64,000 nucleotides of DNA from Rhodococcus sp. 105337. GTDB lineage: Bacteria > Actinomycetota > Actinomycetes > Mycobacteriales > Mycobacteriaceae. A program made the translations under genes and the position numbers. The notes beneath the pieces are model-generated. The model ran no database searches and was not told where the DNA came from. It worked only from the letters and a program-made list of their open reading frames with translations. The stretch covers positions 62,001-126,000 of the forward strand of contig NZ_JABAGQ010000010.1 of NCBI RefSeq assembly GCF_012844225.1, read 5' to 3'. Of the stretch, positions 7,858-46,806 are shown in pieces (the first letter of the stretch is position 1; every line of letters starts with the position of its first letter).

Positions 7858-7867
7858 TCCGGAGGCG

Positions 7868-30583: not shown

Positions 30584-32164
30584 TCAGTTCGGCGGGGTCA
30601 TCACCGGGGAGGCGGTGTCGGGTGTGCTCAGCGTGGCGCGGAGCGTGCGTTTGAGGATCTTGCCGCTCGCGTTGCGCGGCAGTTCGTCCACGAGGTGGAT
30701 GCGCTGCGGTTTCTTGTACGACGCGAGACGCCCGGCGGTGAAGGCGACGAGTTCCTGCTCGGAGGGGCGTTCGACGCCGTCGGCGATGCGGACGACAGCG
30801 GTGACTGCTTCTCCCCAGCGCGGGTCCGGGAGGCCCACCACCGCTACCTCGGCGACTGCGGGATGTTCCGCGAGCACGGCTTCCACCTCGACGGGATATA
30901 CATTTTCTCCGCCGGTGATGATCATGTCCTTGACCCGGTCGGTGACGAACAGGTAGCCGTTCTCGTCGAGGTACCCGGCGTCGCCGGTCCGCAGGAAGCC
31001 GTCCTCGGTGTACAGCGCCGCTGATTCGGCGTCGCGACGCCAGTAGCCCGAGACGTTGTTGCGGGAACGCGACACGATCTCCCCGGTCTCACCCTGCGGA
31101 AGCGGTTCACCCGTTGCGATATCGCGGATCTGGACCTCGGTGCCCGGCAGGGGTGTACCGGCCGAACGGAGAAGGTGGGTGCGCGTCCCGCGGGGATCGT
31201 GGTCGCCGGAGCGCAGTGCGGTGAGCGCGCCCATCGTCTCCGTCATGCCGTAGCGCTGCACCATCCGGCAGCCCAGGGTGTCCATCGTCCGCTCGAGCAG
31301 CGTGGGGGTGATCGGCGACGCACCGTACGCGATCACCTTCAGACTCGACAGATCGTAGTTCGCCAGGTCGGGTAGTTCGAGCAGCATGCCGATCGCTGAC
31401 GGCACCATGAATGTATGGGTGACGCGGTGTTCGGCGATCGTTGCCGCCACCTGCGCTGGACGCATCTCACCGAGCAGAATCGTGTGCACACCCGCAGACA
31501 ACGACGTGGTGAGCCAACCCGCGCCCGCGATGTGGAACAGCGGGAGGGCGTCCAGCGAAACGGATGCGTCCTCGAATTCGTACAGGGCAAAGGTTTCCGG
31601 GACGTTGTACAGATTGCGGTGAACCGCGACAACACCTTTCGGCCTGCCCGTGGTGCCGGAGGTATAGAGCTGCAGGAACGCCGTTTCGGGGTCGTCGCCC
31701 GCTCCGGGGTCGATGTTGTCCCCCGACGCGACGAACTCCTCCCACGACCGCGCCCCGGCGACGGCGGCGCCGTCACCGACCACGACGATGTGCACGTGCG
31801 GCAGTGCCGCCGCGATCGCTGCTGCCGACGCCGCGAAGTCCGGCTCGACGATCAAGACCTCCAGCCCGGCGTCCACTGCGATCGCCGCGACCTCGCCGGG
31901 AGTGAGACGCCAGTTGAGCGGGGTGAAGACGAGACCGGCCTTCGCGCACCCGACGAGGGTCGCCGCACCGGGCAGGCCCATGCGCAGCAACGCACCGATG
32001 CGACCGGGTGCCGACGCCAACGTGGTGAGCGCAGACGCCACCCGGTTGGTGCAGGAGTCGAATTCCCCGTAGGTCAAGGTTGTGTCGCCTGCGGTGACTG
32101 CCGGCCGGTCGCGGCGCTCGACTGCGAATCGCCGGATTCTGTTCGGGAGGTGCAGTTCGCTCAC
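30584..32164 (-). CDS. AMP-forming acyl-CoA ligase (complete FadD-type)
   Basis: A 526-residue ANL-superfamily acyl-CoA synthetase with every core motif: LYTSGTTGRPKGVVAVHRN, QRYGMTETMGA, FLRTGDAGYLDENGYLFVTDRVKDMIITGGENVYP and the C-terminal catalytic lysine region PRNASGKILKRTL. It activates a carboxylic acid through an acyl-AMP intermediate. It is the intact counterpart of the shortened ligase at 24026 and probably supplies acyl-CoA to the block. The start is GTG at 32164. Upstream open sequence in that frame is not coding. It is followed by the two LysR genes. Confidence 0.92.
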   Translation of the reverse strand: MSELHLPNRIRRFAVERRDRPAVTAGDTTLTYGEFDSCTNRVASALTTLASAPGRIGALLRMGLPGAATLVGCAKAGLVFTPLNWRLTPGEVAAIAVDAGLEVLIVEPDFAASAAAIAAALPHVHIVVVGDGAAVAGARSWEEFVASGDNIDPGAGDDPETAFLQLYTSGTTGRPKGVVAVHRNLYNVPETFALYEFEDASVSLDALPLFHIAGAGWLTTSLSAGVHTILLGEMRPAQVAATIAEHRVTHTFMVPSAIGMLLELPDLANYDLSSLKVIAYGASPITPTLLERTMDTLGCRMVQRYGMTETMGALTALRSGDHDPRGTRTHLLRSAGTPLPGTEVQIRDIATGEPLPQGETGEIVSRSRNNVSGYWRRDAESAALYTEDGFLRTGDAGYLDENGYLFVTDRVKDMIITGGENVYPVEVEAVLAEHPAVAEVAVVGLPDPRWGEAVTAVVRIADGVERPSEQELVAFTAGRLASYKKPQRIHLVDELPRNASGKILKRTLRATLSTPDTASPVMTPPN

Positions 32165-32445
32165 TCGTGCTCCTGGTCGGCAGCGCGCGGGCCGGCGTGC
32201 CCGCGCGGCTTCAGTCGAACACGGTCGTGCGGCCGCGACAAAGACCTGCGGCCGCACGACGCCATAGGGGAAACCTATGGAGAGCCGGGGCACGCGCTTC
32301 CCCGGCAATCCGTTTGTCGGATGTCACGATTCCCTATCGGGTAGTCGATGCAGGGTCCACAGGGCTTCGAGGACTCCCACCGTCGGCCGTGGTCGATGGC
32401 ACACTGCGGCACAGCCCGATCCGATCATGTTCCGAAGGGATTCGA
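32165..32445. promoter_or_regulatory. Divergent gap with two perfect inverted repeats
   Basis: No gene is seen here. Three features stand out: a perfect 13-bp inverted repeat (GTCGTGCGGCCGC at 32224-32236, its complement at 32248-32260, 11-base centre); CCATAGG-N5-CCTATGG at 32262-32280; and the ATTCCCTATCGGGTAG/TCGATG segment at 32329-32350 shared with the 26.7-kb gap. The first would form a strong hairpin in the ligase leader RNA. The second has the size of a LysR or TetR operator. Confidence 0.6.
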
Positions 32446-33069
32446 ATGAGCGCTGCACGACGGACAGTGGCCTCGGCCCTGGTCGCGGCCACGGTCACAT
32501 TGGGAGTTTCGACAGGGCAGGCGAGCGCCGACCCTGCCGTCGACACCGTCGTGAACGGGATTCTGTCCGTGACGCCGCTGTGTCAGGGGATGATCGACGA
32601 GTTGATCATCGTCTGCACGGAACTGGAGCAACTGACTCCGCGATTTCCGGTGATGCTGGATCTGAATCCGATCGGCACTCACCTCGTTGTTCTCGGCGCG
32701 GGACTGACCGAGGACGGGAGGATCCGGCCGGTACTGGAACAGCGTCTCGAGGCTGCTCTCGCGGCGGCACACCGCTACCCGGCGTCGCCGATCGTCGTGA
32801 CCGGCGGCGTACCGCGCAACGGCGTCACCGAAGCCCAGGCGATGAAGGACTGGCTTGTCGCACGCGGCATTCATCCCGATCGGGTCACCGAGGAAACTGC
32901 TTCGACGTCCACCGTGGAGAACGCACGCTTCACCAATGACGTCCTTCTCAGGCGTGGCGCAACGGGTGCCGTCCTGGTCACCAACCGGGACCATCTCGAG
33001 CGGGCGATGGTCAACTTCCGGCAGGCCGTCGACGCTCGTATCCCGGTGGCGGGCATCGTCGCTGCGTGA
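32446..33069 (+). CDS. Secreted DUF218 (YdcF/SanA-like) protein
   Basis: A 207-residue protein with a Sec signal peptide (ATVTLGVSTGQASA, cut probably before DPAV near residue 29) and a DUF218 domain: HLVVLGAGLTEDGRI, IVVTGGVPRNGVTEAQAM, and TSTVENARFTND. This family keeps a Rossmann-like fold in YdcF and SanA proteins linked to envelope metabolism, but its reaction is unknown. The start at 32446 has GAAGGGA upstream and removes an out-of-frame-looking N-terminal extension. It converges on the Ter operon, ending 5 bases before its last gene. Confidence 0.85.
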   Translation: MSAARRTVASALVAATVTLGVSTGQASADPAVDTVVNGILSVTPLCQGMIDELIIVCTELEQLTPRFPVMLDLNPIGTHLVVLGAGLTEDGRIRPVLEQRLEAALAAAHRYPASPIVVTGGVPRNGVTEAQAMKDWLVARGIHPDRVTEETASTSTVENARFTNDVLLRRGATGAVLVTNRDHLERAMVNFRQAVDARIPVAGIVAA

Positions 33070-33074
33070 TGCGA

Positions 33075-34595
33075 TCAGGTTCTGACGGCTCCGAGAACTG
33101 CCACCACCGTGCGCAGCAATTCCTCGTCGGTGGGGAGCGTGTCGGCCGCGAACCGCCAGTCGGTGTTCGTCCACGGGTCGGCGAGGTGACCGTCCTCGGC
33201 CGCGGGTAGATGCTGCGACACGTCGCGTAAGAGGGCGTACGCGGGATTGTCCACGACTTTGTCGTCCGCGCCGGTGATCACAATCGAAATGTCCTGGGAC
33301 GAACCCATTCTTGCCAGATGCACGACATTCACCAGATCGATGCTGCCGAACCCGTGCGGCAGGCCCGCCAGCACGATGACGCGGGGTTCGGGCCGGAGCG
33401 TCTCGGCGCCGGACGACAGTGCGAGGCCCGTAAGGTCCGCGGCTTCGGCGAGGCCTTTCAGTTTCGGCGCCACCCCGGCGATGTCGTGAATGGGAGGGCC
33501 GGCGAGCATCGGCCGTGCCAGTTCGCTCAACGCGAGCAACGATCCGGACGGATCGATGATGTCGAGGCGGGATCCGGGGCGCGCGGACAACAGACGCAAC
33601 GCCAACGACGACGCGACCGCGCCGGCAATCGCGGCCTCACCGTCGATCCACAACGGCCTACCGAGGGGAAGCGGTACGCACATCGGTAACCGGAGCGCCC
33701 CGCGATCCGGCGCCGACAACTCGCCCACGCGCACACCGTCTCCCTGGACCAGCGTGCCGCGCCATGCGCCCGAGTCCCACGAGGCAAGCGACGCGGGCAG
33801 CACCGCATCGACCGTGTCGAGTTCGGCGGCGAGCGTCACGCTGTCGTCACGATGCCGGGACTCCGCTGCCGCCACGAGTTCTTCGCAGCGCCGGTGTGCT
33901 TGTGCGCGGGCCGTTTCTGCTGCCCGACCGGTACGGGCGGAGGGGTCCGCCACCGCCGCCGACAACTCGTCGTCGAGCCGATGCTGCGCGTATTCGTGCG
34001 CAGCGACGTAGGCGGCGGCCGACCGGGAAGCGTCTTCGAAGATCCGCCACACCAGTTCGCAGGACGGGGGAAGTTCGGTTCCTGTCGTCGTCGGCAACGC
34101 ATCCGCCTGTGCGGGAGCAACATCGGCGGGCTCGTCGACCGCGACGCCGTGCGCGGTGAACATCTCCGCGAGTCCACCGGCATAACCCGCACCGAGCGCG
34201 CGAATCTTCCAGGTTCCGTTGCGGCGGTATATCTCCCAGCACAGCAGTGCGGATTCTGTGCCCGTCGCGGGCGTGATGTGGAAGGACGCGAGAGGCGTTC
34301 CGTCGGCGTCACACAGCGTGGTCGATACCGGCGTCGTCGACGCTGCTCCCACGGCGCACAGCACTCGCGCGCCCGGGCGCAGGGCGTCCGGCTCGAGGAC
34401 GATGGTCTCGCCCTCGACCCGGACGCCCGCCGTGGCCGGCTGATTGTAGAAGACCACGTCGTCCGAGGTCGCGACCTGCAGCAGGTCGTCCACCACGAAT
34501 GCGCACAGGTCCAGCGGAACCTGCGCGGACGCGGCGAAACGCAGCGTGCGGACCGTCAGCGGACCGTTCTGCCCCGCCGAGAACTCATACGTCAT
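33075..34595 (-). CDS. TerD-domain protein fused to a degenerate FtsK-like ATPase domain
   Basis: A 506-residue protein. Residues 1-150 are a TerD-type domain (SAGQNGPLTV, CWEIYRRNGTWKIRALGAGYAGGL). A helical Ala/Arg/Glu-rich middle follows (about 180-270). The C-terminal part resembles the FtsK/HerA core (PLPLGRPLWIDGEAA, LDIIDPSGSLLALSEL, PRVIVLAGLP), but the P-loop Gly-Lys-Ser is missing, so ATP hydrolysis is doubtful. It is the last gene of the Ter operon, five bases after the TerD-TerD gene. TerD domains bind Ca2+ and assemble into membrane-linked complexes; this fusion may connect them to DNA or other cargo, which is inference. Confidence 0.8.
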   Translation of the reverse strand: MTYEFSAGQNGPLTVRTLRFAASAQVPLDLCAFVVDDLLQVATSDDVVFYNQPATAGVRVEGETIVLEPDALRPGARVLCAVGAASTTPVSTTLCDADGTPLASFHITPATGTESALLCWEIYRRNGTWKIRALGAGYAGGLAEMFTAHGVAVDEPADVAPAQADALPTTTGTELPPSCELVWRIFEDASRSAAAYVAAHEYAQHRLDDELSAAVADPSARTGRAAETARAQAHRRCEELVAAAESRHRDDSVTLAAELDTVDAVLPASLASWDSGAWRGTLVQGDGVRVGELSAPDRGALRLPMCVPLPLGRPLWIDGEAAIAGAVASSLALRLLSARPGSRLDIIDPSGSLLALSELARPMLAGPPIHDIAGVAPKLKGLAEAADLTGLALSSGAETLRPEPRVIVLAGLPHGFGSIDLVNVVHLARMGSSQDISIVITGADDKVVDNPAYALLRDVSQHLPAAEDGHLADPWTNTDWRFAADTLPTDEELLRTVVAVLGAVRT

Positions 34596-34600
34596 CCGCG

Positions 34601-35845
34601 CTACGTAGCCAGGAACCGGCCCAGCTGGGGTGCGGCCTCACCGGGATGCTTGGCCTGGATGCCCTCGCCGATCGCCTGCAGCTTCCAGGAGTTGCCCTCG
34701 CGGTACACCTTCGCCATCACCATGCCCGTGAACGGCATACCGCCCTGCATGGTGTACCGGGCGAGTTCGCCGTTGGTTGTGCCGTCGACGAGGCGGCAGA
34801 ACGCATTCTGAACCTGCTCGAAGGAATGACCCTTGTACGACGTGACGACGAACATCACGGTGGTGATGTGCGCCGGGATGCGCGTGAGGTCGACGAGCAC
34901 GACCTCGTCGTCGCCTGCTCCCTCACCCGTCAGGTTGTCGCCCTGGTGCTGGATCGATCCGTCCTTCGACTGCAACTGGCCGTAGTAGGCCACGTCCACG
35001 ATGTTGTGGTCGGCGAACAGGACTGCGGACGCGTCGAGGTCGATGTCGGCGGAACGATTGCCGAACAGCCCGCGCTTCTCGATGGGATCCCAGCCGAGGC
35101 CCATGCGCAGGTACGTCAGTGCCACGCCGCCGTCCTTGCGGAGCGTGACCTTCTGGCCCTTGACGAGGCTCACGGGACGGTTCTTCGTCAGGCTGACCTC
35201 GGCGGGCTCCGCGGGTGCGGCCGCCGGCGGCGGAGCCTGGTTGTACTGCTGCTGCGGTGCGGGCGGCGGGGTGGCCGCCTGCGGCGGCGGGGGCGGCGTC
35301 TGGGCGACGCTCGGTGCAGGCGCAGACGCCGCTGCCGGTGCGTCGTCGACGGACACTCCGTGATCGGTGACGAGCGCAGCGAATCCTCCCGCGTAGCCCT
35401 GGCCGACCGCGCGCACCTTCCACGATCCCTGCCGTCGGTACAGCTCGAGGGCGATCACGATGGACTCGCTGGACAACCCTTCGATCCGGTACTCGAACAG
35501 CACGTTGCCCGCTGCGTCGGAGACGCGGGCGGTGGGCGGTGCGAACCGGCCGAAACTGCTCGTCGCATCGTCGAGTGTGATCACCGCGCGCACCTGGTCG
35601 ATATCGGCGGGTACCTGCGGCAGCGACACTGCCAGCGACGAGTTCTGTCCCGCCTGTCCGGGCACCAGACGCACACCCGGCCCGACCGGCTGATTGAAGA
35701 ACACGAAGTCGGCGTCGGACCGTACCTTGCCGTCGGCCTTGACGAGCAGCGCCGACAGGTCGGCGGGTGTCGTGAGTTCGAGCGAAACGACGACGTCGGA
35801 GACGGTGAGCGGTCCGTTCTGACCCTTGGAGAGCGAAGTCGGCAA
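34601..35845 (-). CDS. Double TerD-domain protein with Pro/Ala/Gln linker
   Basis: About 414 residues: TerD domain 1 (SLSKGQNGPLTVSDVVVSLE, DFVFFNQP, ELYRRQGSWKVRAVGQGYAGG), a flexible Pro/Ala/Gln linker (PPPPPQAATPPPAPQQQY), and TerD domain 2 (SLVKGQKVTLRKDGG, DIDLDASAVLF, HQGDNLTGEGAGDDEVV) with the acidic Ca2+-binding residues. I place the start at a TTG at 35845 because GAGGA lies 8 bases before it and the protein then begins like other TerD proteins. A TTG at 35893 would add 16 residues. It probably acts as a scaffold of the tellurite/stress-response complex. It lies 56 bases after the HAD gene. Confidence 0.85.
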   Translation of the reverse strand: MPTSLSKGQNGPLTVSDVVVSLELTTPADLSALLVKADGKVRSDADFVFFNQPVGPGVRLVPGQAGQNSSLAVSLPQVPADIDQVRAVITLDDATSSFGRFAPPTARVSDAAGNVLFEYRIEGLSSESIVIALELYRRQGSWKVRAVGQGYAGGFAALVTDHGVSVDDAPAAASAPAPSVAQTPPPPPQAATPPPAPQQQYNQAPPPAAAPAEPAEVSLTKNRPVSLVKGQKVTLRKDGGVALTYLRMGLGWDPIEKRGLFGNRSADIDLDASAVLFADHNIVDVAYYGQLQSKDGSIQHQGDNLTGEGAGDDEVVLVDLTRIPAHITTVMFVVTSYKGHSFEQVQNAFCRLVDGTTNGELARYTMQGGMPFTGMVMAKVYREGNSWKLQAIGEGIQAKHPGEAAPQLGRFLAT

Positions 35846-35901
35846 GAGATGTGTCCTCACTGTGTCGGCAACCGTGTTGGCGGTCGCGTGCAAGTCCTAC
35901 T

Positions 35902-36738
35902 CTACGAACCGCCCTCGGCGCGGGCGGACCGGGCGAACCAGGAGAGGATTTCTTCGCCGGCTGCGATGCCCGAGTGTTCGGTCACCGAGAGGTTCGCATG
36001 CTGCCATTCGAGCAGTTCGAGTTCGCCGTGACGTGGGCGGATGGCCGCGTCCGCAGCCCTCAGCATCTCGGCATCGAGCGCTCCGTCGCCGGCTGCGAAC
36101 ACGGGGGCGTCGGCGTCGATCACTCCCTCGTCGGCGAGCCGGCGGTGCACTTCGGCCACCGCGTGGGACTTACAGACGCTGTCGGGCATCGTGTAGATCT
36201 TGCGGCCCTGCTGCGAGACGTTCCACCCGCGGATACCGCACCATTCCTGCCAGTCTTCGACGAATCCGGCCGGCTGTGCCGCGACGTCGACGACGAGGTA
36301 GCAGAACAACCCGTCGGCGATCCGGAACTTCGACACCCAGCTCTCGGAGATGCGCCGCCGCAACTCGGCGATGACCTCCTCGAGGGAGGCACCACCCTCG
36401 CGTACCGCCGTCTCCACGTGCCGGCGCCACTGCTCGTCCGGTTCCCCGTCCGCCAGCAACGCGCCGCCGTTGCTGGTGATGGCATATCGCCACGGGCCGC
36501 CGGGCAGGTCGATGCGGCGGAATTGCTCCGGTGTCCGGGTGGTCGTGGGCACCACGGTATGCGCGGACGTGAGGTCTTCGAGTTGTCGTGCGGCGGTCTC
36601 GGTGACGTACGACAGCGGTGCGCCCTCGTAGTACTCGATGCACCGCAGATTTCCGGCCGAATACTGCGTGCCTGTCATCGCCGCACGCGAGTAGATCAGG
36701 GTGCGGTCGAGGTCGGTGGCGATCAATGCTGCTGTCAC
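35902..36738 (-). CDS. HAD-superfamily phosphatase of the Ter operon
   Basis: A 278-residue Cof/sucrose-phosphatase-like HAD hydrolase. The nucleophile motif is ATDLDRTLIY (Asp9 and Asp11), motif II is in TTTRTPEQ, and the late metal site is AAGDGALDAEML. It would dephosphorylate a small phosphorylated metabolite. The start is a GTG at 36738 overlapping the StiP/PELOTA gene stop by 4 bp; the longer open frame upstream is shadow. In Ter-linked biosynthetic operons a HAD phosphatase regularly accompanies phosphoribosyltransferase-fold proteins and a CitE-like lyase. Confidence 0.85.
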   Translation of the reverse strand: MTAALIATDLDRTLIYSRAAMTGTQYSAGNLRCIEYYEGAPLSYVTETAARQLEDLTSAHTVVPTTTRTPEQFRRIDLPGGPWRYAITSNGGALLADGEPDEQWRRHVETAVREGGASLEEVIAELRRRISESWVSKFRIADGLFCYLVVDVAAQPAGFVEDWQEWCGIRGWNVSQQGRKIYTMPDSVCKSHAVAEVHRRLADEGVIDADAPVFAAGDGALDAEMLRAADAAIRPRHGELELLEWQHANLSVTEHSGIAAGEEILSWFARSARAEGGS

Positions 36739-37841
36739 GGTAGGTCCTTGATGAGTCCCATACACGAATACGCGAGGTCGGGAACCTCTTCGACGGGAAC
36801 GTTGCGGGCAGCGGCGAGCATCCGGATGTGCGCGTGCTCGTCGGCGGTCAAATCGCGTACGAGGATCTTCCACGGCACCCGGCGCAGCAGTACCCGGGTC
36901 GTCTCTCCGACACCGGGTTTGACGAAATTGATGCTGGAGATGCCGTACCGCACACGGATGCGCTCCACCGACTCCCACCCTGCCCAGGTGGGTTCGCGGT
37001 CGGACCCGAGCAGTTCGCGTGCGCTCGCCAGTGCCGCTGCCCGATCGCCGAATTCGGCCGACACCGTATCGAGCAGGAGCGTCGAGACGTCGTCGCCGGC
37101 GAGTTCGGCGTAGTACTTCGCACCGTGGAATTCGCCGGGCCCTATCCACGTGTCGTTCAGGACCGTGCGCGACACCAGACCCGACACCGTCGAGTTCAGG
37201 CACGCCGACGCGATGAGAAAGTCGTCGCGGGTGCCGTAGGTACGCACGCAGTAACCGGGATCGGCGAGCACGGCGAGGTCGTCCGACAGCGCCGGGCCAC
37301 CGGCGGCGGAGTACTCGGCCAGCGCGGCCGCCAGCTCCCGCGCGATCGCGCCCTTGCCGGTCCAGCCGTCGACGAACACGACCGAGGCCGGGTCGTGGTG
37401 TTCGGTGATGTAATCGAGTGCTGCGGAGTCGATTCCGCGTCCCCGCACGATCGAGACCGCGTAGTGCGGCAGCGACAGGCCGTGGTGCTGTTGCGCCCAG
37501 CGGCGGATCAGGATTCCGACCGGCGTTCCCGCGCGCGCCAGCGACACGAGAGTGAGGTTCGTCCCGCGTTCGGCGATCAGGAGTTCGGTCAGGGTTCCCA
37601 CCGCGTGGGCAAGTCGTCCCGCGGTGGACGCGAGTGCCTTGTCGAACAACTCCCGGTACGGGGCGTCGGGCTGGTACTCGACCGGCAACGACTCCGCGTA
37701 GTGCGCGAGTCCCGCCTGGATGCGGGCCTCACGCTCGGCGATGTCGCCTTCGAGGTCGACGTGCGAGAGATCCTTGAGCAGCCAGGTCACCTCGTCCGGG
37801 GCGTACGAACCGAAATCGGGTCCGGTCAACGGTGTGGTCAT
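36735..37841 (-). CDS. StiP-type phosphoribosyltransferase-fold protein with C-terminal PELOTA-like domain
   Basis: A 368-residue protein typical of Ter operons. The N-terminal three quarters carry the StiP/PRTase_1 family pattern (LVSLARAGTPVGILIRRW, HYAVSIVRGRGID, VVFVDGWTGKGAI, LADPGYC, LNSTVSGLVSR). The conserved Cys and a glycine-rich WTGKG loop replace the usual PRPP loop. The C-terminal 80 residues (WKILVRDLTADEHAHIRMLA) fit the PELOTA RNA-binding-like domain. It has been annotated elsewhere as a cysteine protease or a phosphoribosyltransferase; the fold argues for nucleotide chemistry. It is coupled to its neighbours by 4-bp overlaps on both sides. Confidence 0.82.
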   Translation of the reverse strand: MTTPLTGPDFGSYAPDEVTWLLKDLSHVDLEGDIAEREARIQAGLAHYAESLPVEYQPDAPYRELFDKALASTAGRLAHAVGTLTELLIAERGTNLTLVSLARAGTPVGILIRRWAQQHHGLSLPHYAVSIVRGRGIDSAALDYITEHHDPASVVFVDGWTGKGAIARELAAALAEYSAAGGPALSDDLAVLADPGYCVRTYGTRDDFLIASACLNSTVSGLVSRTVLNDTWIGPGEFHGAKYYAELAGDDVSTLLLDTVSAEFGDRAAALASARELLGSDREPTWAGWESVERIRVRYGISSINFVKPGVGETTRVLLRRVPWKILVRDLTADEHAHIRMLAAARNVPVEEVPDLAYSCMGLIKDLP

Positions 37842-39133
37842 CGTGTCTCCCTCGAAGCAGCCAGTGCTGCCGGATCTGTGGCCGGCACAACCGCCACCAG
37901 TACGTCCTCGCCGGCCGCGCTCACTACGTCGAGCACGCCCCCGTCGGCGCGCAGGCGTTCGGTATCGGCCGGAGAGTCGACCACGAGGATCAACTCGGGG
38001 CGTACTTCGGCGGGTTCCGGCCACCGGGCGTTGTACAGGTACCGGGCGGCCTCGGTTTCGTGTTCGGACGGGATGTGTTCGGGTGCGACGAAAGAGAATC
38101 CGCGCCGCAGTGGGTAGCCCGGGACATCCCGGACGTACGCGGGCGACCGTGTCGTGGTCTGGAATCTGGTCGCGGTGCCACGCTCGGAGAGCGCCTGTGC
38201 CAGTCGCAGCGGCAGGTACATGAGTTCTTCGTGGCCGATGACGATCGCCGGACGATCGCTCTCCCGGACGGACTCGACCGTCGCTGCCGCCGCGGCGACC
38301 GCGGAGTCGTAGGCCGCGAAGTCGCTGCCCAGAACGCCGTGCCGTCCTCCGTCGGGGACGTCCGAGGGCCAGGGCACAGAGACGAACCGAACGGTACCGC
38401 GGTGAGCAGCGACAGGATTGAGGTCGGGAGCCGGTAGCGCGGTGACCCGGTCGGTGAGATCGGTGGGCAGCACGGTGTGACCGTCCGCGAGGCTCACGTG
38501 CTCGATCGTCGCGCCGAGGTCGAGTTCCGCCGCCGCCGTCTGGCGACGGTGCTCCTCGCCGCGCATGTCCACGAGCGACGCGACGATGTAACGGTCACGG
38601 GGATGAATCCGGTGCAGCGCACGGATGGCATCGACAGCTGTTGCACCGGTCGAGATTTCGTCGTCGACGAGAACGAGCGGCGCGGCGTTGGCGAAGAGAT
38701 CCGGCGAAGTGGGCTGCAGCAGGTGCGATGTCGCGTGGGAGTGTCCCTCCTCGAAACCGGCGAACACCACCGCGCCCGGCACGCGGCGACGTGTCGAATG
38801 CAGGTAGCACCCGGCACCCACCGCCTCGGCGACACAGTGTCCCAAACCCGTTGCGGTCTCTGCGAATCCCAGAACGAGCGCATTCGAAGCGTCGTCGCCG
38901 AGCAGGTCGGAGACGAGGAGCCCGAGGTCGCGGCCCGCCGCCAGCACCGCGGCGGGGTCGGTGGGGATGTGCTTGCCGAGCACCGTCGATACCAGCAGAT
39001 GTGCCCGGCGCGGGTTCCGGCGAAGTCCGGGCTGGACGAGTTCCGGGACGGTGTAGCCGCTCGAAGTTCCTCGATGCTCGAGGGCGAGCCCGAACTCCTC
39101 GGTGGCCCAATACTTCTGGAGAATGTCGGTCAT
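37838..39133 (-). CDS. Phosphoribosyltransferase with TRSP domain
   Basis: A 431-residue protein. The first half is a true type I phosphoribosyltransferase with the PRPP-binding loop LVLVDDEISTGATA (residues 153-166). The second half is a TRSP-type domain (IVIGHEELMYLPLRLAQAL, FQTTTRSPAYVRDVPGYPLR) found only with these PRTases. It would attach a base-like group to PRPP. Start ATG at 39133, overlapping the CitE-like gene stop; its own stop overlaps the StiP-type gene. It is the clearest indication that the operon makes a nucleotide- or nucleoside-like compound. Confidence 0.87.
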   Translation of the reverse strand: MTDILQKYWATEEFGLALEHRGTSSGYTVPELVQPGLRRNPRRAHLLVSTVLGKHIPTDPAAVLAAGRDLGLLVSDLLGDDASNALVLGFAETATGLGHCVAEAVGAGCYLHSTRRRVPGAVVFAGFEEGHSHATSHLLQPTSPDLFANAAPLVLVDDEISTGATAVDAIRALHRIHPRDRYIVASLVDMRGEEHRRQTAAAELDLGATIEHVSLADGHTVLPTDLTDRVTALPAPDLNPVAAHRGTVRFVSVPWPSDVPDGGRHGVLGSDFAAYDSAVAAAAATVESVRESDRPAIVIGHEELMYLPLRLAQALSERGTATRFQTTTRSPAYVRDVPGYPLRRGFSFVAPEHIPSEHETEAARYLYNARWPEPAEVRPELILVVDSPADTERLRADGGVLDVVSAAGEDVLVAVVPATDPAALAASRETR

Positions 39134-40320
39134 CGGTCCACCAGCGCCGTCAACAGTTCGACGAACGTGACGCCCTTGTTGGTGACTCCGAATACGGACG
39201 CACGGACCAGCGTCTGCTCCGCCCAGGTGCGGTGGGGACGGCGTTCGTTCATCTTGTTGCCGTACCCGGACGCGCTGACTCCACCGGTGTCGCGATCGAG
39301 AATGTCGGTCGCGTCGTGGAACTCCTCGTGCGTGACCGCCGACAACGCGTGTACCGCGGCGACGTGCGAGGGATGGATCACCGTCTTGCCCTGGATGCCG
39401 TTCGCGCGGTCGAGTGCGATCTCCCGCAGGAGACCGTCGAGATCCCGGCTGACGAGTTGCTGGCGGAACACCACCGCGTCCTGCTCCTCGAACGGGGTAG
39501 CGCGCAGCATCGGCCGGAACATGCGTTCGTGATCGGCGAAGTACTCCCACACCGGCCCGGTGATGACGAACCCGGTGCCGTCGGTGCGGCCGAGGTGGTT
39601 GACGATGTCGGCGATCACGTCGACGACGACCCGCACGTCGTAGATCGTCAGGTCGCGGTCGCGGCGGATGCCGAAGGTCGCACACATGTCGGTCGCGCCG
39701 ATCCGGACGGCGAGGATCCGGTGGCGATGTTCGGCGAGCAGCCGAGCGATCGCGCGCAGTTCGTCGTCGCGGGTTTCGCGGTGCACCACAGCAGCCGATT
39801 CGATGACGGGCATCGCGTAGAGGTTCCGCCCGACCCGCTCGGAGGCGACGGCGACCGCGTCGAGGAAGTTGCCCCCGGTAGTGGCACCGAACTTGGGAAG
39901 CACGAATCCGGTGAGCACGCTGCTTCCGGGACCCAGCATCTCGGTGAGCCGGTCGATCCCGTCGGGGGTGCGGACGCGAACGAACAACATCATCGGCGCT
40001 TCGCCACGGAGAGCGAGTTCGTCGAGGGTCGCGACGGCGTTGCGGAGTCCGTCCTCGACCTCGTCGTCGGCCACGGCGTCCTCGAGATCGAGCACCATCG
40101 AGGTCACGCCTTCGGCGGAGCGCCGGACGATGGTGGCCGTGAGGTCGTGCCGGGTCGCGGGGACGTACAACGTGGCCCCGAGCGCCATCGCGAGCCGCTC
40201 ACGGGCGTCGGCGTGACCGAAAGGTTGGGGGTGGTGCAGGAACAGGCGGTCCAAGGTGGGCCGGTCCAGATGTCGGAAGTGCCGCATCGCGCGCACCCCG
40301 GTGTGAGTAGCCCCGGTCAT
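39130..40320 (-). CDS. HpcH/HpaI (CitE-like) lyase of the Ter operon
   Basis: A 396-residue CitE-superfamily TIM-barrel protein, about 120 residues longer than the catabolic CitE at 7036. Key sites are SMVLDLEDAVAD, FVRVRTPDGID, MPVIESAAVVH and GKTVIHPSH. It probably forms or breaks a C-C bond next to a carboxylate or thioester. The extra length includes a C-terminal segment GNKMNERRPHRTWAEQTL specific to the Ter group. Start ATG at 40320 overlaps the coiled-coil gene stop (ATGA). It is unlikely to take part in leucine breakdown. Confidence 0.85.
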   Translation of the reverse strand: MTGATHTGVRAMRHFRHLDRPTLDRLFLHHPQPFGHADARERLAMALGATLYVPATRHDLTATIVRRSAEGVTSMVLDLEDAVADDEVEDGLRNAVATLDELALRGEAPMMLFVRVRTPDGIDRLTEMLGPGSSVLTGFVLPKFGATTGGNFLDAVAVASERVGRNLYAMPVIESAAVVHRETRDDELRAIARLLAEHRHRILAVRIGATDMCATFGIRRDRDLTIYDVRVVVDVIADIVNHLGRTDGTGFVITGPVWEYFADHERMFRPMLRATPFEEQDAVVFRQQLVSRDLDGLLREIALDRANGIQGKTVIHPSHVAAVHALSAVTHEEFHDATDILDRDTGGVSASGYGNKMNERRPHRTWAEQTLVRASVFGVTNKGVTFVELLTALVDR

Positions 40321-41516
40321 CGGTCCGTGTTCCGTCCTCTCATTCGATTCACCACTCCGGTGATGAACGTCGATACCGCGTCCAGGTCTTTGACGTACGC
40401 CCAGTAGTCGGGATGTACACCGGTCAGCGCATCGACTGCCCGGTCGATTCGATTCAGCTGGGCGTCGAGGACGGATCCCCATTCTGCTGTGAGTCCACGC
40501 TGTACCGCGAGGTGTTGTGCATCACGCAGCCGGAACCGCACGTCACGGACCTTCGACTCCGGGTTTTCCTTGACGGCTCGCAGCGTGGCGAGCCGGTCGG
40601 TCACCGCATCGACGAGTTCTTCGGCCCGCGCGAGCTCCGCGCGCACCACACCGGCCTGGGCGAGCGCTTCTTCGGGGCGTCCTGCGGCGAGGGACGCGCG
40701 GGCGACGTCGAGTTCCTCGGCGGCGCGCTCGAGCAGAAGAAGGGCTTGTTGTTCGTTGTCGGACAGATCCGCCGAACTGGCGGCGTTGAATTCGCGCAGC
40801 AGGGCGGAGTAGGCCGGTGCGAGACCTTCCGACCGAGTGCGTACTGCGCCGAGCCGGGTGGTGACGGAGGCGAGGGTGTTGCGTGCCTCGGCCTGCCGTC
40901 CCGGTGCCTCCGCGAGCGCTTCACGAAACGCCGCGGTTGCTTCCTCCACCTGGTGGGCGGCGGTACGCACCGCACCCGCACCGGTCGCGGCACCGAGGGT
41001 GTGGAGTGCGCGTTGCACCGCGTCGGTGGTCGCGCGGACGGACGGGTACTCGGCGAACGCGCTGTTCGCGGGTGTGTCCAGCGCTCCGAGGGCGTCGCGG
41101 GCATCGGCGCTCACCCGGGCGGCCAGCTGGGGTGCGGTCTGCGCGACCGTGACCGCGTGCTCGAGATGACCGCGGTAGCGCTCGTAGAACTCGTCCAGAG
41201 TTCTTGCGGCGTCCGCAATCTGGTGGATCACCTGCTCGTAGGCTGCGGCAGGGGCCAGCTCTTCCTCGGGTTCGGTGCGAGCGAGTTGCAGATACGCCTC
41301 GGCTGCCTGGTAGCACTTCTGCCGGATCGGTTCCCACCTGCGGAGCAGGTCCCGTTCCGGCGCGACCTCGTGGGAGGCGATGACGCCGGCCTCTGCGATG
41401 GACTGTCGCTTGTCCATGTCGAGGAACGCGGCCACCATCGCGTCATGGGCGCGGAGGGCCGCGGGATCATCGGTGCGCCCGCCGCCGAAGAGGCGGCGCG
41501 TCCATCGGCTCGCCAC
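40317..41516 (-). CDS. Uncharacterised alpha-helical coiled-coil protein heading the Ter operon
   Basis: A protein of about 399 residues that I cannot assign to a named family. Nearly the whole length is predicted amphipathic helix rich in Ala, Glu, Arg and Leu (for example LSDNEQQALLLLERAAEELD and RAELARAEELVDAVTDRLA), with a basic N-terminus (VASRWTRRLFGGGR). No signal peptide or membrane segment is seen. The start is probably GTG at 41516. The frame is open further upstream but with weaker coding character. As first gene of the operon and coupled by overlap to the CitE-like gene, it may scaffold the enzymes or link them to TerD proteins. Confidence 0.7.
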   Translation of the reverse strand: MASRWTRRLFGGGRTDDPAALRAHDAMVAAFLDMDKRQSIAEAGVIASHEVAPERDLLRRWEPIRQKCYQAAEAYLQLARTEPEEELAPAAAYEQVIHQIADAARTLDEFYERYRGHLEHAVTVAQTAPQLAARVSADARDALGALDTPANSAFAEYPSVRATTDAVQRALHTLGAATGAGAVRTAAHQVEEATAAFREALAEAPGRQAEARNTLASVTTRLGAVRTRSEGLAPAYSALLREFNAASSADLSDNEQQALLLLERAAEELDVARASLAAGRPEEALAQAGVVRAELARAEELVDAVTDRLATLRAVKENPESKVRDVRFRLRDAQHLAVQRGLTAEWGSVLDAQLNRIDRAVDALTGVHPDYWAYVKDLDAVSTFITGVVNRMRGRNTDR

Positions 41517-41736
41517 AAGACCGAATGGTACTGCTCGCCCGGCCCGCGCCTGTCGACTCGACCTCCCGGGACCCCGTACGGGGGCCTCGGCTGGGCATTC
41601 GGGGCGTGACCCGGCACGGAGTCGGCATAGTGGGTAGGGGCGCACCTCACAGAGACCTATTACTGTGGGGGCATACGCGCACACTGGGCGTGCCCTTCCG
41701 GTACGTCGACCGTAGGAACGATCGAAAGGACCCCGC

Positions 41737-42312
41737 ATGGGCGTCAGCTTGACCAAGGGTGGCAACGTTTCGCTCACCAAGGAAGCGCCGAACCTCACGG
41801 CTGTGGCCGTCGGCCTCGGCTGGGACGTGCGTACCACCACCGGTACCGACTTCGACCTCGACGCCAGTGCGATCGCTACGGGTGCCGACAAGAAGGTCGT
41901 CTCCGACCAGCACTTCGTGTTCTTCAACAACATGAAGTCGCCCGACGGCTCCATCGAGCACGCCGGCGACAACCGCACCGGTGAGGGCGAGGGCGACGAC
42001 GAGGTCATCAACGTCGACCTGTCCGCCGTGCCGGCGAACATCGAGTCCATCTTCTTCCCCGTCTCGATCTACGACGGTGAGACCCGCAGCCAGTCGTTCG
42101 GCCAGGTTCGCAACGCGTACATCCGCGTCGTCGACCGCGCCAACGGCTCCGAGCTGGCCCGTTACGACCTCTCCGAGGATGCGTCCACCGAGACCGCGAT
42201 GGTCTTCGGTGAGCTGTACCGCAACGGTGCCGAGTGGAAGTTCCGGGCCATCGGCCAGGGCTACGCCTCGGGCCTGTCGGGCATTGCGCGCGATTACGGT
42301 GTCAACGTCTAG
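41737..42312 (+). CDS. terD: TerD-family Ca2+-binding stress protein
   Basis: A 191-residue canonical TerD protein: [15 protein letters not shown] at the start, DFDLDASA (about 38-45) and [13 protein letters not shown] (77-89) as Ca2+ ligands, ending [17 protein letters not shown]. TerD proteins confer tellurite and general stress tolerance and work with TerC-type membrane proteins. GAAAGGA lies upstream of the ATG. It is divergent from the Ter biosynthetic operon across a 220-base gap without a gene. In that gap CACAG-N10-CTGTG near 41648-41667 is the main symmetric element. Confidence 0.95.
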
Positions 42313-42325
42313 TTCGATCAGTCGT

Positions 42326-42356
42326 GATCCGGTCCCGGCCGTGCCGGGGCCGGATC
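42326..42356 (+). terminator. Stem-loop between terD and terC
   Basis: A 13-bp stem with one G-T pair (GATCCGG...CCGGATC, 42326-42356) and a 5-base loop, 13 bases after the terD stop and 70 before the terC start. No T-run follows. It could be a partial terminator that lets terD be made in excess over the membrane protein, or an mRNA-stabilising element. Confidence 0.55.
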
Positions 42357-42425
42357 GACGCTCTCCGGAGCCTGCAGTAACCACCCTGCACCGCCCCTGA
42401 CTTCTACTCAGAAAGGCCACGCTTC

Positions 42426-43526
42426 GTGGTTCTGCGAATATTCGGCCCGTCGCTGGCCGTCACCGTCATCTCTCTTGTGGTGGCGTTTCTCTACGGTGGC
42501 CCCCAGGCTCTGTTCCTCTGTGTGATCCTCGGCATCCTCGAAGTCTCGCTCTCGTTCGACAACGCGGTCATCAACGCGACCGTCCTGCGCCGGATGAGCG
42601 AGTTCTGGCAGAAGATCTTCCTCACCGTCGGCATCCTCATCGCCGTCTTCGGCATGCGTCTGGTGTTCCCGCTGCTCATCGTGTGGGTGGCATCCGGGCT
42701 CGGTCCGATCGCGGCACTCGATCTTGCGCTCAATCCGCCGGAGGACGGGGCCGCATACTTCCCCGACGGCAGCGCGAGCTACGAGACGCTGATCACCGAC
42801 GCGCACCCCCAGATCGCTGCGTTCGGCGGCATGTTCCTGCTGATGCTGTTCCTGCACTTCATGCTCGAAGAGCGTGAGATCAAGTGGCTGAAGTGGCTCG
42901 AAGTTCCGCTCGCGAAGGCAGGCAAGCTCGACCAGCTCGAGGTTGTCGTCGCCACCGCACTGCTGCTGATCACCGCCACCGTCATCGCACCCGACGACAA
43001 GGTGTCGACGGTGATGATCGCCGGTGCGCTCGGCATGATCACCTACATCGCGGTCAACGGTCTCGGCGAGATGTTCCATGTCCCGGAAGAAGACGAAGTA
43101 CCCACCGGTGGGCCGAGCGGACTGGCCAAGGCCACCGGTAAGGCCGGGTTCTTCCTGTTCCTCTACCTCGAGGTCCTCGACGCTTCGTTCTCGTTCGACG
43201 GCGTCATCGGGGCGTTCGCGATCACGTCCGACCCGATCATCATCGCCCTGGGTCTGGGCTTCATCGGCGCGATGTTCGTCCGATCCATCACCATCTACCT
43301 CGTCCGCAAGGGCACGCTGAACGATTACGTGTATCTCGAGCACGGCGCCCACTGGGCGATCGGCGCACTCGCGTTGATCCTGCTGTACTCGATCGGCACG
43401 CACGTTCCCGAGGTGATCACCGGCCTGGTCGGTATCGCCCTGATCGGCGCAGCCTTCGCTTCGAGCGTCTACCGCAATCGCAACAACGCCAAGAAGGCGG
43501 ACGCGGACGAAATAGTGTCCGCCTGA
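42426..43526 (+). CDS. terC: TerC/DUF475-family membrane protein
   Basis: A 366-residue integral membrane protein with about nine hydrophobic segments. Two symmetric halves each carry the family motif with a membrane Asp: SFDNAVINA (about 38-46) and SFDGVIGAF (from about 258). This pattern defines the TerC superfamily, whose members act in metal (Mn2+) export and tellurite resistance. It is the DUF475/YkoY-like branch rather than short TerC. The start is GTG at 42426. TerD-type proteins are thought to gather around TerC at the membrane, which fits its position next to terD. Confidence 0.92.
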   Translation: MVLRIFGPSLAVTVISLVVAFLYGGPQALFLCVILGILEVSLSFDNAVINATVLRRMSEFWQKIFLTVGILIAVFGMRLVFPLLIVWVASGLGPIAALDLALNPPEDGAAYFPDGSASYETLITDAHPQIAAFGGMFLLMLFLHFMLEEREIKWLKWLEVPLAKAGKLDQLEVVVATALLLITATVIAPDDKVSTVMIAGALGMITYIAVNGLGEMFHVPEEDEVPTGGPSGLAKATGKAGFFLFLYLEVLDASFSFDGVIGAFAITSDPIIIALGLGFIGAMFVRSITIYLVRKGTLNDYVYLEHGAHWAIGALALILLYSIGTHVPEVITGLVGIALIGAAFASSVYRNRNNAKKADADEIVSA

Positions 43527-43548
43527 GCAGTCCGACAGTGAGTTCGAC

Positions 43549-43597
43549 AGCGAAGGGAGCCTCCGACCCGGATTTCGGGAAGAGGGCTCCCTTCGCT
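43549..43597 (+). terminator. Terminator after terC
   Basis: A perfect 13-bp inverted repeat, AGCGAAGGGAGCC at 43549-43561 and GGCTCCCTTCGCT at 43585-43597, followed by GTTTCG. It starts about 20 bases after the terC stop and ends the terD-terC transcript before the terA-like gene. Confidence 0.8.
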
Positions 43598-43649
43598 GTT
43601 TCGTACCCCCAGTGCAGTCCGCACACCGCAGTTCCGACGAAAGGTAATC

Positions 43650-44306
43650 GTGGCCATCGACTACAGCAAGAAGCCTGAACAGAATTCGGGCGTCAACCTC
43701 AGCAAGATCAACCTCACGAAAGAGTCCCCGACGGTCAGCCTGTCCAAGGGCGGGTCCGCTCGGGGCGTCACGCGCGTCAACCTCGACTGGTCGCGCGGGG
43801 AGCAGAAGAAGGGCTTCCTCGCCAAGCTGACCGGCGCGAGCAACGGTGTCGACCTCGACCTCGGCTGCCTCTTCGAGCTTGCCGACGGGTCCAAGGGTGT
43901 CATCCAGGCTCTCGGCAACAGCTTCGGAGCGCTGAACACGCCGCCGTACATCCACCTCGACGGTGACGACCGCACCGGTTCGGTGGCGGGTGGCGAGAAC
44001 ATGCACATCAACCTCGAACGCCCCGAACTCTTCAAGCGCGTGCTGATCTTCGCGATGATCTACCAGGGCGCGCCCAACTGGGCCGCGGTCGACGGCGTGG
44101 TCACGCTGTCCCCGCCGTCCGGACCGCAGATCGAGGTCCGCCTCGATTCCCCCAACAACGGGGCACGCATCTGCGCCATCGCGATGATCGAGAACACCGG
44201 TCAGGGAGTCACCGTCAACCGCCTGGTGGAGTACATCGACGGCAGTCAGTCCGACCTCGACCGCAAGTACGGGTGGGGCATGAAGTGGCAGGCCGGCCGC
44301 AAGTAG
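43650..44306 (+). CDS. TerA-like tellurium-resistance/stress protein
   Basis: A 218-residue protein of the TerD/TerA superfamily. NLSKINLTKESPTVSLSKGG at the start is followed by DLDLGCLFELADGSKGVIQALG and DGDDRTGSVAGGENM, the last being the acidic metal loop. The end (RLVEYIDGSQSDLDRKYGWGMKW) is typical of TerA-like rather than TerD proteins. GTG start at 43650 with GAAAGG 6 bases before. It lies after the terC terminator, so it may have its own promoter. It completes the plus-strand Ter genes. Confidence 0.9.
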   Translation: MAIDYSKKPEQNSGVNLSKINLTKESPTVSLSKGGSARGVTRVNLDWSRGEQKKGFLAKLTGASNGVDLDLGCLFELADGSKGVIQALGNSFGALNTPPYIHLDGDDRTGSVAGGENMHINLERPELFKRVLIFAMIYQGAPNWAAVDGVVTLSPPSGPQIEVRLDSPNNGARICAIAMIENTGQGVTVNRLVEYIDGSQSDLDRKYGWGMKWQAGRK

Positions 44307-44321
44307 CGGACGGACGGGGCA

Positions 44322-44353
44322 GGGGTGCGGCCACGGTCGCGTGGCCGCACCCC
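44322..44353 (+). terminator. Terminator after the terA-like gene
   Basis: A 14-bp perfect stem (GGGGTGCGGCCACG at 44322-44335, complement at 44340-44353) with a GTCG tetraloop, 15 bases after the stop. No T-run. It separates the Ter genes from the oxidoreductase gene. Confidence 0.75.
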
Positions 44354-44383
44354 GCGGCTCTTCGACCTCCCGGTTCTATGGGT

Positions 44384-44401
44384 TCTGTCACACTGGACAG
44401 A
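44384..44401. promoter_or_regulatory. Inverted repeat upstream of the YdeP-type gene
   Basis: TCTGTC-N6-GACAGA at 44384-44401, about 33 bases before the ATG, in the position of a core promoter or operator. No candidate regulator gene is adjacent. Confidence 0.4.
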
Positions 44402-44433
44402 GCACAAAACGCTGCGCTGTGAGGAGTGATCTG

Positions 44434-46806
44434 ATGCGGGACGATCAACGACGCGAGTACGACGAGCAGGACTTGCGCGTCGGAGACCACAAGAACAGTG
44501 CCGCCGGCGTCACCGGCGTTGCGGTCGCGTTGAAACGCTCGTTGCGGGAAATGGGCATAGTGCGCTCGGCCGAGACCCTTCTCCAGCTCAATCAGGAGGA
44601 GGGATTCGACTGCATGAGCTGCGCGTGGCCCGACCCGGAGCCGGGGCACCGGAAGACCGCGGAGTTCTGCGAGAACGGTGCCAAGGCGGTTGCCGAGGAG
44701 GCCACCCGCGACCGGGTCACTCCCGAGTTCTTCGCGCGGCACAGCATCGCCGATCTCTCCCAGCACAGTGAGCTCTGGCTGGGCAAGCAGGGACGCATCA
44801 CGCACCCGATGGTCAAACGCCCCGGTGCCACCCATTACACACCGATCGACTGGGACGACGCCTACGCGCTCATCGGCGAGCAGCTGCGTTCACTCGACAG
44901 CCCCGACGAAGCCCTCTTCTACACCTCCGGCCGGGCCTCGAACGAGGCGGCGTTCGTGTACCAGTTGTTCGCCCGTGCATTCGGCACCAACAACCTGCCC
45001 GATTGCTCCAACATGTGCCACGAGTCCACCAGCATCGCGTTGCAGGAGTCGATCGGTATCGGCAAGGCCAGCGTCACGCTCGACGACGTCTACAACGCCG
45101 AGCTGATTGTTCTCCAGGGCCAGAATCCCGGCACCAATCATCCGCGCATGCTCACCGCACTCGAAGATGCCAAGCGCAACGGAGCAAAGATCCTCGCGAT
45201 CAATCCGCTCCGCGAGGCGGGCCTGGTCAACTTCCGTAATCCGCAGACCCCGCGCGGTGTCGTCGGGCACGGCACGGACCTCGCCGACCTGCACCTGCCC
45301 ATCGCGGTGAACGGCGACCTCGCGTTGATGCAGGGGATCGCGTCGTTGCTCGTCGAGTGGGATGCGATCGATCACGATTTCGTGCGGGAGTACACCGACG
45401 GTTTCGAGGACTGGAAGCGGCATGTCCAGAACGTCGACTGGGACGAGGTGATCTCGGCGACCGGGCTGTCGCGGCAACTGATCACCGAGGCGGCCCAGAT
45501 GCTGCGGCGGTCGAAGGCCACGGTGTTCTGCTGGGCGATGGGTGTGACGCAGCATCGCAACGCCGTGGCGACCATCAAAGAAATCTGCAATGTCGCGTTC
45601 GCACAGGGGAACATCGGCCGACGGGGTGCCGGCCTCATGCCGGTGCGCGGCCATTCCAACGTGCAGGGCGACCGCACCATGGGCATCTGGGAGCGCCCGC
45701 CGCAGCACTTCCTCGACGCGCTCGAGAAGGAGTTCGGTTTCGACCCGCCGCGCGAATACGGCTTCGACACAGTCGATTCCATCCGCGCGATGCGGGACGG
45801 CAAGGCGAAGTTCTTCCTCGGCCTCGGAGGCAACTTCGTGCAATCCGCCCCCGACACGGTGGTCACGTCCGAAGCCATGTCCGGAATCGACATGACCGTC
45901 CACATCTCCACCAAGCTCAACCGGTCTCATCTGGTGTGCGGAGATACAGCGCTCATCCTGCCGACGCTCGGACGAACCGAGAAGGACGTGCAGGCATCCG
46001 GTCACCAGTTCGTCTCCGTCGAAGACACGGAATGCTCGGTGCACGCCTCCCGTGGTCCGCTCGAACCGGCCAGTGAGCATCTCCGGTCGGAGGTCTCGAT
46101 CATCACGAGCATCGCCGAGGCGACGATCGGGGACCGTTACGGCATCGACTGGAAGGCGATGCGCGACGACTACGCGAACATCCGCTCGCGGATCGCGAGG
46201 GTGGTACCCGGATGCGAGGGGTACGAGGTCAATGTCCGGCGGCCCGGCGGATTCATCCTCCCGCACCCGCCGCGAGATACACGGACTTTCCAAACCGAGA
46301 CGGGGAAAGCAGAATTCGCGGTGTCCCCGATCGAGGTCGTCCAGGTGCCCCCGGGGCATCTCCTCTTGCAGACGCTGCGCAGTCACGACCAGTTCAACAC
46401 CACCATCTACGGGCTGAGCGACCGCTATCGCGGTATCGAGGGCGGTCGTCGTGTGGTGTTCATGCATCGTGAGGACATCGCCGCGGCGGGGCTCGACCCG
46501 GGCGACATCGTCGACCTTTTCACCCGGTGGGACGGTGACGAGCGGGTGCGCTGCGCCCATCGGTTCCGCGTCGTCGAGTACGACGTGCCGCGCGGGTCTG
46601 CGGCGGCCTACTACCCGGAGACCAACCCGTTGGTCCCTCTCGATTCCACTGCTCTCGAAAGCAATTGCCCGACCTACAAATCGGTCGTGATCTCGATTGC
46701 GCCCACGGGCACCCGCAGCAGCGAGTGCCCCGACGTGTGCAGCACTCAGGAAGTGGGATCCGACTGGTCGCACAAGACGCGCCCCCAGCCGGAGCATCTG
46801 TCGTAA
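44434..46806 (+). CDS. FdhF/YdeP-family molybdopterin oxidoreductase
   Basis: A 790-residue molybdopterin-guanine-dinucleotide oxidoreductase related to formate dehydrogenase alpha subunits and E. coli YdeP. The N-terminal cysteine motif is short (FDCMSCAWPDPE, about 60-71), then come TSGRASNEAAF, LPDCSNMCHESTS, GQNPGTNHPRM and MPVRGHSNVQGDRTMG; the C-terminal Mo-cofactor domain follows. The YdeP branch is linked to acid resistance and its electron partner is not known. Start ATG at 44434 has GAGGAG 7 bases upstream; the open frame before it is not coding. Confidence 0.9.
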   Translation: MRDDQRREYDEQDLRVGDHKNSAAGVTGVAVALKRSLREMGIVRSAETLLQLNQEEGFDCMSCAWPDPEPGHRKTAEFCENGAKAVAEEATRDRVTPEFFARHSIADLSQHSELWLGKQGRITHPMVKRPGATHYTPIDWDDAYALIGEQLRSLDSPDEALFYTSGRASNEAAFVYQLFARAFGTNNLPDCSNMCHESTSIALQESIGIGKASVTLDDVYNAELIVLQGQNPGTNHPRMLTALEDAKRNGAKILAINPLREAGLVNFRNPQTPRGVVGHGTDLADLHLPIAVNGDLALMQGIASLLVEWDAIDHDFVREYTDGFEDWKRHVQNVDWDEVISATGLSRQLITEAAQMLRRSKATVFCWAMGVTQHRNAVATIKEICNVAFAQGNIGRRGAGLMPVRGHSNVQGDRTMGIWERPPQHFLDALEKEFGFDPPREYGFDTVDSIRAMRDGKAKFFLGLGGNFVQSAPDTVVTSEAMSGIDMTVHISTKLNRSHLVCGDTALILPTLGRTEKDVQASGHQFVSVEDTECSVHASRGPLEPASEHLRSEVSIITSIAEATIGDRYGIDWKAMRDDYANIRSRIARVVPGCEGYEVNVRRPGGFILPHPPRDTRTFQTETGKAEFAVSPIEVVQVPPGHLLLQTLRSHDQFNTTIYGLSDRYRGIEGGRRVVFMHREDIAAAGLDPGDIVDLFTRWDGDERVRCAHRFRVVEYDVPRGSAAAYYPETNPLVPLDSTALESNCPTYKSVVISIAPTGTRSSECPDVCSTQEVGSDWSHKTRPQPEHLS

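Follow-up and report, generated by a model that had tools for sequence, protein, structure and literature searches.

What does a run of predicted biosynthetic enzymes do beside the stress genes terD and terC, and how are these enzymes and the Ter proteins connected? This question is raised by a locus of Rhodococcus sp. 105337, located at positions 33075..44306 of the 64,000-nt stretch of contig NZ_JABAGQ010000010.1 analysed here (the window, whose numbering is used throughout). An earlier reading of the letters alone, the original prediction, had placed ten open reading frames (ORFs) at this locus, and all ten were found with the ends claimed. Seven genes occupy 41516-33075 of the minus strand and encode a coiled-coil protein, a CitE-like lyase, a phosphoribosyltransferase (PRTase) of the PRTase_2-TRSP type, a StiP-PELOTA protein, a HAD phosphatase, a double TerD protein and a TerD fusion protein. 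They face terD, a DUF475-type terC and a gene for the C-terminal half of TerA on the plus strand (41737-44306). The genes had been called contiguous, and by coordinates the coil/lyase, lyase/PRTase, PRTase/StiP and StiP/HAD junctions are 4-nt overlaps, while the final two gaps, after the HAD gene, are 8 and 5 nt. The seven minus-strand genes therefore look like one operon. The prediction of a Ter-linked biosynthetic operon using phosphoribosyl pyrophosphate (PRPP) and facing terD-terC was supported; the idea, as known from papers that cite it, has already been published. The locus is an actinobacterial chromosomal version of the Ter-linked module, the core idea of which is known, and the chief gains of the present analysis are a revised reading of StiP, a PRTase-StiP fusion, a co-inherited coiled-coil partner and a TerD-FtsK-like protein. 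In the reading that we prefer, with a probability of roughly 0.5, the enzymes would use PRPP to make a nucleotide-like compound, StiP being an RNA-binding partner of the PRTase, and the Ter proteins would use or sense the product.

The comparison was made on loci collected with StiP as the anchor, from which the best 80 of at least 583 confirmed genome stretches were taken; among the StiP matches listed, the top one by name was R. coprophilus at 94%. Two actinobacterial genome samples, 296 genomes of the phylum and 201 genomes of the family, and 18 genomes of the genus were used in addition. Of the 80 loci, 78 have the lyase, 79 the PRTase, all 80 the HAD phosphatase, 73 the coiled coil, 73 TerC and 36 TerA, and some of the misses are due to short loci. 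All 78 loci having the four genes lyase, PRTase, StiP and HAD carry them in this order on one strand, which indicates that the grouping is more than chance. In the phylum sample, PRTase_2 and StiP passed their cut-offs in the identical 17 of 296 genomes, and in 16 of these 17 the lyase scored more than 380 bits. The lyase cut-off was also passed by 79 further phylum genomes (G142 included) through paralogues, none of them listed above 56 bits.

The PRTase and StiP were found in one continuous open frame in 46 of the 79 loci holding both, and 33 loci, including the window, were counted as separate; the PRTase match is split in two pieces at several loci, and one locus (L099) was counted as separate with its frame relation uncertain. 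Shared frames were seen for neither lyase/PRTase (0/78) nor StiP/HAD (0/79). The common frame and the occurrence in the same 17 phylum genomes argue that the PRTase and StiP belong together, and the single polypeptide in 46 of 79 loci, with the 4-nt coupling in the window, suggests that StiP works with the PRTase. In the window the PRTase gene occupies 37838..39133 on the minus strand (PF15609, 222 bits; PF12500, 103 bits), with the PRTase_2 domain at 38480-39040 and the C-terminal TRSP domain at 37952-38353. When the StiP and PRTase_2 profiles were compared, the probability was 0.4 percent, so that kinship of the two is not supported by sequence, although their loops come near register.

The StiP gene (36735..37841, minus strand) gave 350 bits for StiP and 122 bits for PELOTA_1 in Pfam. 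Structure comparison of the predicted model indicated that residues 55-255 (~37074-37676) resemble type-I PRTases, with the stretch 209-218 around Cys214 modelled poorly. StiP models as this type-I PRTase-like fold followed by a PELOTA/L7Ae-like predicted RNA-binding domain (36738-36983), and it formerly bore the name PRTase_1. Pyridoxal-phosphate enzymes in the Foldseek list were set aside for their root-mean-square deviation near 20 Å and low TM-scores; peptidase folds are absent among the listed structure matches, an absence that is not used as evidence. Motifs were read from alignments of the window protein, the locus proteins and plasmid and phage references, the lyase alignment having no phage member. 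The presumed phosphate loop of StiP, VDGWTGKG, was invariant in 84 of 84 aligned sequences. It falls two residues short of the canonical PRPP loop and retains only the first of its two acidic residues, and for this reason catalysis by StiP is not claimed.

StiP is annotated as a cysteine protease (PF11202), a name found in Pfam, RefSeq and UniRef and under which a 2025 gut-enzyme survey counted it (PMC12111023). If the name were right, the locus would couple proteolysis to the Ter response, and the cysteines at first seem to agree with it: of the 81 actinobacterial StiP sequences, 80 retain Cys198, 80 retain Cys214 and all 81 retain Cys360. In the three plasmid and phage references, however, Cys214 is replaced by Ile and Cys360 by Ala, and the position of Cys198 holds Cys, Arg and Ile. 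None of the three cysteines of the window protein is thus common to all three references, and across the 84 aligned sequences there is no position at which Cys is universal. From these substitutions and the PRTase-like fold, we consider a protease very improbable and question the label as misleading, a name that steers work away.

StiP is widespread. Matches were obtained in 2567 of 72,556 plasmid records, mainly enterobacterial, and in many actinobacteria. A soil record of Prescottella equi (NZ_CP121764.1) has StiP on a 432-kb plasmid at 75% identity, showing that the gene is plasmid-borne in actinobacteria too. A relative with 41% identity was also seen at 7244-8275 of MT836648.1, a 15-kb unannotated record named 'Bacteriophage sp.' from human faeces.

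The other three enzymes kept their catalytic motifs in every ungapped sequence. The CitE-like lyase (39130..40320, minus strand; C-C_Bond_Lyase PF15617, 409 bits) has E80, D81, K143, E174, R206 and D211 with GK..IHP in 80 of 81 sequences, one being gapped, and R115 in all 81. The PRTase_2 loop DDE..TG.T (D157, D158, E159, T162, G163, T165) is kept in 82 of 83 sequences, again with one gap. The phosphatase (35902..36738, minus strand) is only weakly recognised by Pfam and NCBIfam, HAD-IIB and related models all scoring under their cut-offs, but all 83 sequences retain both HAD motifs, DxDxT and GDxxxD. The roles of these conserved residues are those known for the families. The claim that all enzyme motifs are intact therefore stands for the lyase, the PRTase_2 and the phosphatase; for StiP it does not, as the loop is invariant and at the same time non-canonical. 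Pfam cut-offs were passed in the window by TerD, TerC/DUF475, C-C_Bond_Lyase, PRTase_2 with TRSP, StiP with PELOTA_1 and both TerD-containing minus-strand proteins. Another CitE-like match, scoring 31 bits against PF15617, was located at about 7597-7839 on the plus strand, distant from the Ter locus.

HAD-IIB phosphatases and CitE-like lyases are often housekeeping or salvage enzymes. The operon might accordingly salvage or detoxify a cofactor or nucleotide damaged by stress and make no signal, and the finding of TRSP in all 18 genus genomes would suit such a function, although it also counts in favour of the biosynthetic reading. Its linkage to ter genes, both in actinobacteria and on gammaproteobacterial plasmids, speaks against this explanation, which we regard as unlikely: the PRTase, HAD, StiP and lyase genes adjoin ter genes on an IncHI2 plasmid and on a Pseudomonas plasmid.

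The first gene of the operon (40317..41516, minus strand; 399 aa, with a GTG start picked by hand) encodes a coiled-coil protein for which no Pfam or NCBIfam model scored above its cut-off. The protein had been noticed in the original prediction, whereas its co-inheritance with the enzymes had not. Of 7,997 scored candidates, 325 were homologues. The coil gene is immediately upstream of the lyase in 59 of the 73 loci that carry it. In the family sample StiP was present in 104 of 201 genomes, and a strong coil match was obtained in 98 of these 104 and in none of the 97 StiP-negative genomes. At E <= 0.001 there were 104 genomes with coil matches; 98 of the matches were below 1e-80, every one in a StiP-positive genome, and the other six, which came from StiP-negative genomes only, were weak and partial (E 4e-5 to 6e-4, 20-24 bits). 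The threshold between strong and weak was set in this gap of E-values after the list had been inspected. Six StiP-positive genomes (G321, G326, G333, G361, G404 and G425) had no coil match. The association gave a Fisher p of 1e-50, a value that ignores shared descent. In the phylum sample the coil was found in 16 of 296 genomes, the very ones that have PRTase_2, StiP and a lyase above 380 bits, and 11 of the 16 belong to one genus. At Streptomyces-type loci the coil was found in 14 of 16 on the opposite strand, 1.7-9.3 kb from the HAD start. The co-inheritance is hence not merely operon linkage, while neighbourhood linkage remains. From these distributions, the coiled-coil family is apparently a co-inherited actinobacterial partner of the enzymes.

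Other identities for the coiled coil were considered. Its profile matched chemoreceptor and EzrA chains at E 0.001-0.006, which was taken as generic coiled-coil similarity, and PADLOC at E <= 0.01 gave a single match, in which the JetC model hit the coiled coil with E 0.0033. TelA was rejected as the partner, with no TelA profile match in the genome of the strain and no match of the coil to TelA up to E 0.1. A recurrent in-frame TGA in the coil of one genus (g217, six genomes) was rejected in part: two of the sequences (L113 and L114) align over 1-395 with no internal stop, and the profile match probably runs beyond the gene end.

The two minus-strand genes after the phosphatase had been described as two TerD proteins. 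Both do contain TerD, but the first has two TerD domains and the second has one TerD with an FtsK/EssC-like domain, a fusion that had not been recognised. The double TerD protein (34601..35893, minus strand; 430 aa, TTG start as listed) gave 263 bits to PF02342 in two stretches, the second domain spanning profile positions 3-178 of 187. The last gene (33075..34595, minus strand) is predicted by structure to encode, in linear order, a TerD domain, a helical hairpin and an EssC/EccC/FtsK-like fold (~33075-33788). This fold might suggest that the lower operon genes serve translocation or DNA handling, the protein being an adaptor for type VII secretion or for an FtsK-type motor. Walker A was found in none of the 42 aligned sequences, so the protein itself is probably no motor, and we think such a function quite improbable.

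On the plus strand, terD (41737..42312) has one complete TerD domain (PF02342, 284 bits, profile 1-187 of 187). The gene called terC (42426..43526) does belong to the TerC family of membrane proteins; it is of the DUF475 type (PF04332, 441 bits; PF03741, 55 bits; NCBIfam NF010613, 582 bits) and only weakly like the plasmid TerC (28% over 86 residues). Five of the seven loci with no TerC homologue are shorter than 12 kb. The gene called terA-like (43650..44306) matches TerA with 47% identity, limited to residues 180-385 of the TerA of plasmid pHZ011, that is to its C-terminal half, and had no Pfam match over the cut-off. TerD-type genes cross-match one another, and counts of them across loci were not used. 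Four more TerD matches lie elsewhere in the genome (C34:29161-31516, C33:206133 and C1:350006), two of them near each other.

Taken together, the proteins could form the following pathway. The lyase would prepare a small carbon acid or a base precursor, the PRTase_2-TRSP protein would couple this precursor to ribose-5-phosphate from PRPP to give a nucleotide-like compound, and the HAD phosphatase would take off a phosphate. StiP would be a second, RNA-binding subunit of PRTase fold acting with the PRTase. Under stress the product would be used or sensed, possibly as a signal, at a cytoplasmic and membrane side made up of the TerD-type proteins, the coiled-coil partner, the DUF475-type TerC and the TerD-FtsK-like adaptor; a link of TerC to the pathway, like the TerC/TerD membrane complex of the original prediction, is presumed here. 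With StiP as a partner of the PRTase and with the coiled-coil protein, there is now a concrete protein set toward finding the metabolite.

The predicted RNA-binding domain allows two further ideas. StiP might, like PyrR, bind the product of its PRTase and, through the L7Ae-like domain, read or modify an RNA of the K-turn type. We hold this idea tentatively and as an unlikely one; if it were true, the Ter system would act as a stress switch from nucleotide to RNA, with a coiled-coil partner of its own and the TerD-FtsK-like protein as its adaptor. It is also doubtful, in our judgment, that the pathway acts on RNA with no free metabolite, PELOTA/L7Ae holding an RNA on which PRTase_2 and StiP would exchange or add a base or a ribosyl group, since the lyase and the phosphatase would have no obvious place in such a reaction and Rfam gave no match within 32000-46000 up to E 0.1.

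The divergent intergenic region between the coil gene and terD (41517..41736) was also compared. Fifty-five coil-terD regions were extracted and 29 were aligned, and the alignment showed only a partly conserved promoter-like stretch and a ribosome-binding site. A GGAA-type pattern was present in 10 of the 55 regions, compared with a mean of 0.9 after shuffling, and another form of it in 8, compared with 0.7; these are two of nine self-chosen patterns tried on related regions with mononucleotide shuffles. The search for a stress-sigma promoter led nowhere, as no conserved site of that kind appeared in the 29-region alignment. Outside the locus, an 821-aa ORF 3' of the TerA-like gene (44341-46806, plus strand) resembles by eye a molybdopterin oxidoreductase of the formate-dehydrogenase type, and an ORF convergent with the operon end (32167-33069, plus strand) resembles by eye a secreted YdcF-type protein.

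How, then, does the locus compare with known systems? Anantharaman, Iyer and Aravind reportedly predicted a Ter-linked biosynthetic module in 2012. The window shares with that module PRTase_2-TRSP, StiP-PELOTA, HAD and a CitE-like lyase beside terD and terC, and differs in having no ATP-grasp gene: none was found by Pfam among the ten proteins, and a homologue of the plasmid ATP-grasp was seen in one of the 80 loci (L073). In the genome of the strain the only ATP-grasp match stayed under the cut-off; it falls within a frame of 1182 aa on another contig, probably carbamoyl-phosphate synthase. The cut-off was passed in six of the 18 genus genomes, three times by frames of about 449 aa that do not share a contig with the TRSP gene, and an ATP-grasp enzyme may act from elsewhere in the genome. 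TerB is likewise absent from the locus; a single TerB-family gene lies on another contig (C1:542154), and plasmid TerB matched two of the 80 loci.

The later literature considered here comprises PMC8115787, PMC9933665, PMC12054061 and PMC7824862. A 2021 survey of jumbo phages proposed that TerB or TerD might sense a signal produced by the PRTases and HADs of Ter systems (PMC7824862), and a 2021 Klebsiella paper called the link between the two halves of the Ter system unclear (PMC8115787). The coiled-coil protein and the TerD-FtsK-like fusion cannot be compared with the 2012 module from what the citing papers say of it. Searches of which none was aimed at the coil partner or at the PRTase-StiP fusion found no paper on these two or on the TerD-FtsK-like fusion, some of which may be described in the 2012 paper.

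Among single proteins, StiP differs from PyrR and other type-I PRTases in its shorter, singly acidic loop VDGWTGKG and in the L7Ae-like domain that follows, and the last protein of the operon differs from the EssC, EccC and FtsK ATPases by having no Walker A and by its fusion to TerD. Acinetobacter phage vB_AbaM_ME3 carries consecutive PRTase, HAD and StiP genes, with StiP under the name 'phosphoribosyl transferase', but has no CitE-like gene annotated adjacent to them. The IncHI2-type plasmid pHZ011 has neither the DUF475 TerC nor the half-length TerA of the window, which in turn shows no TerB or vWA protein by Pfam among its ten. Its PRTase, HAD, StiP and lyase are nevertheless 27-37% identical to those of the window over the aligned parts, and there, too, the biosynthetic genes are divergent from the ter genes.

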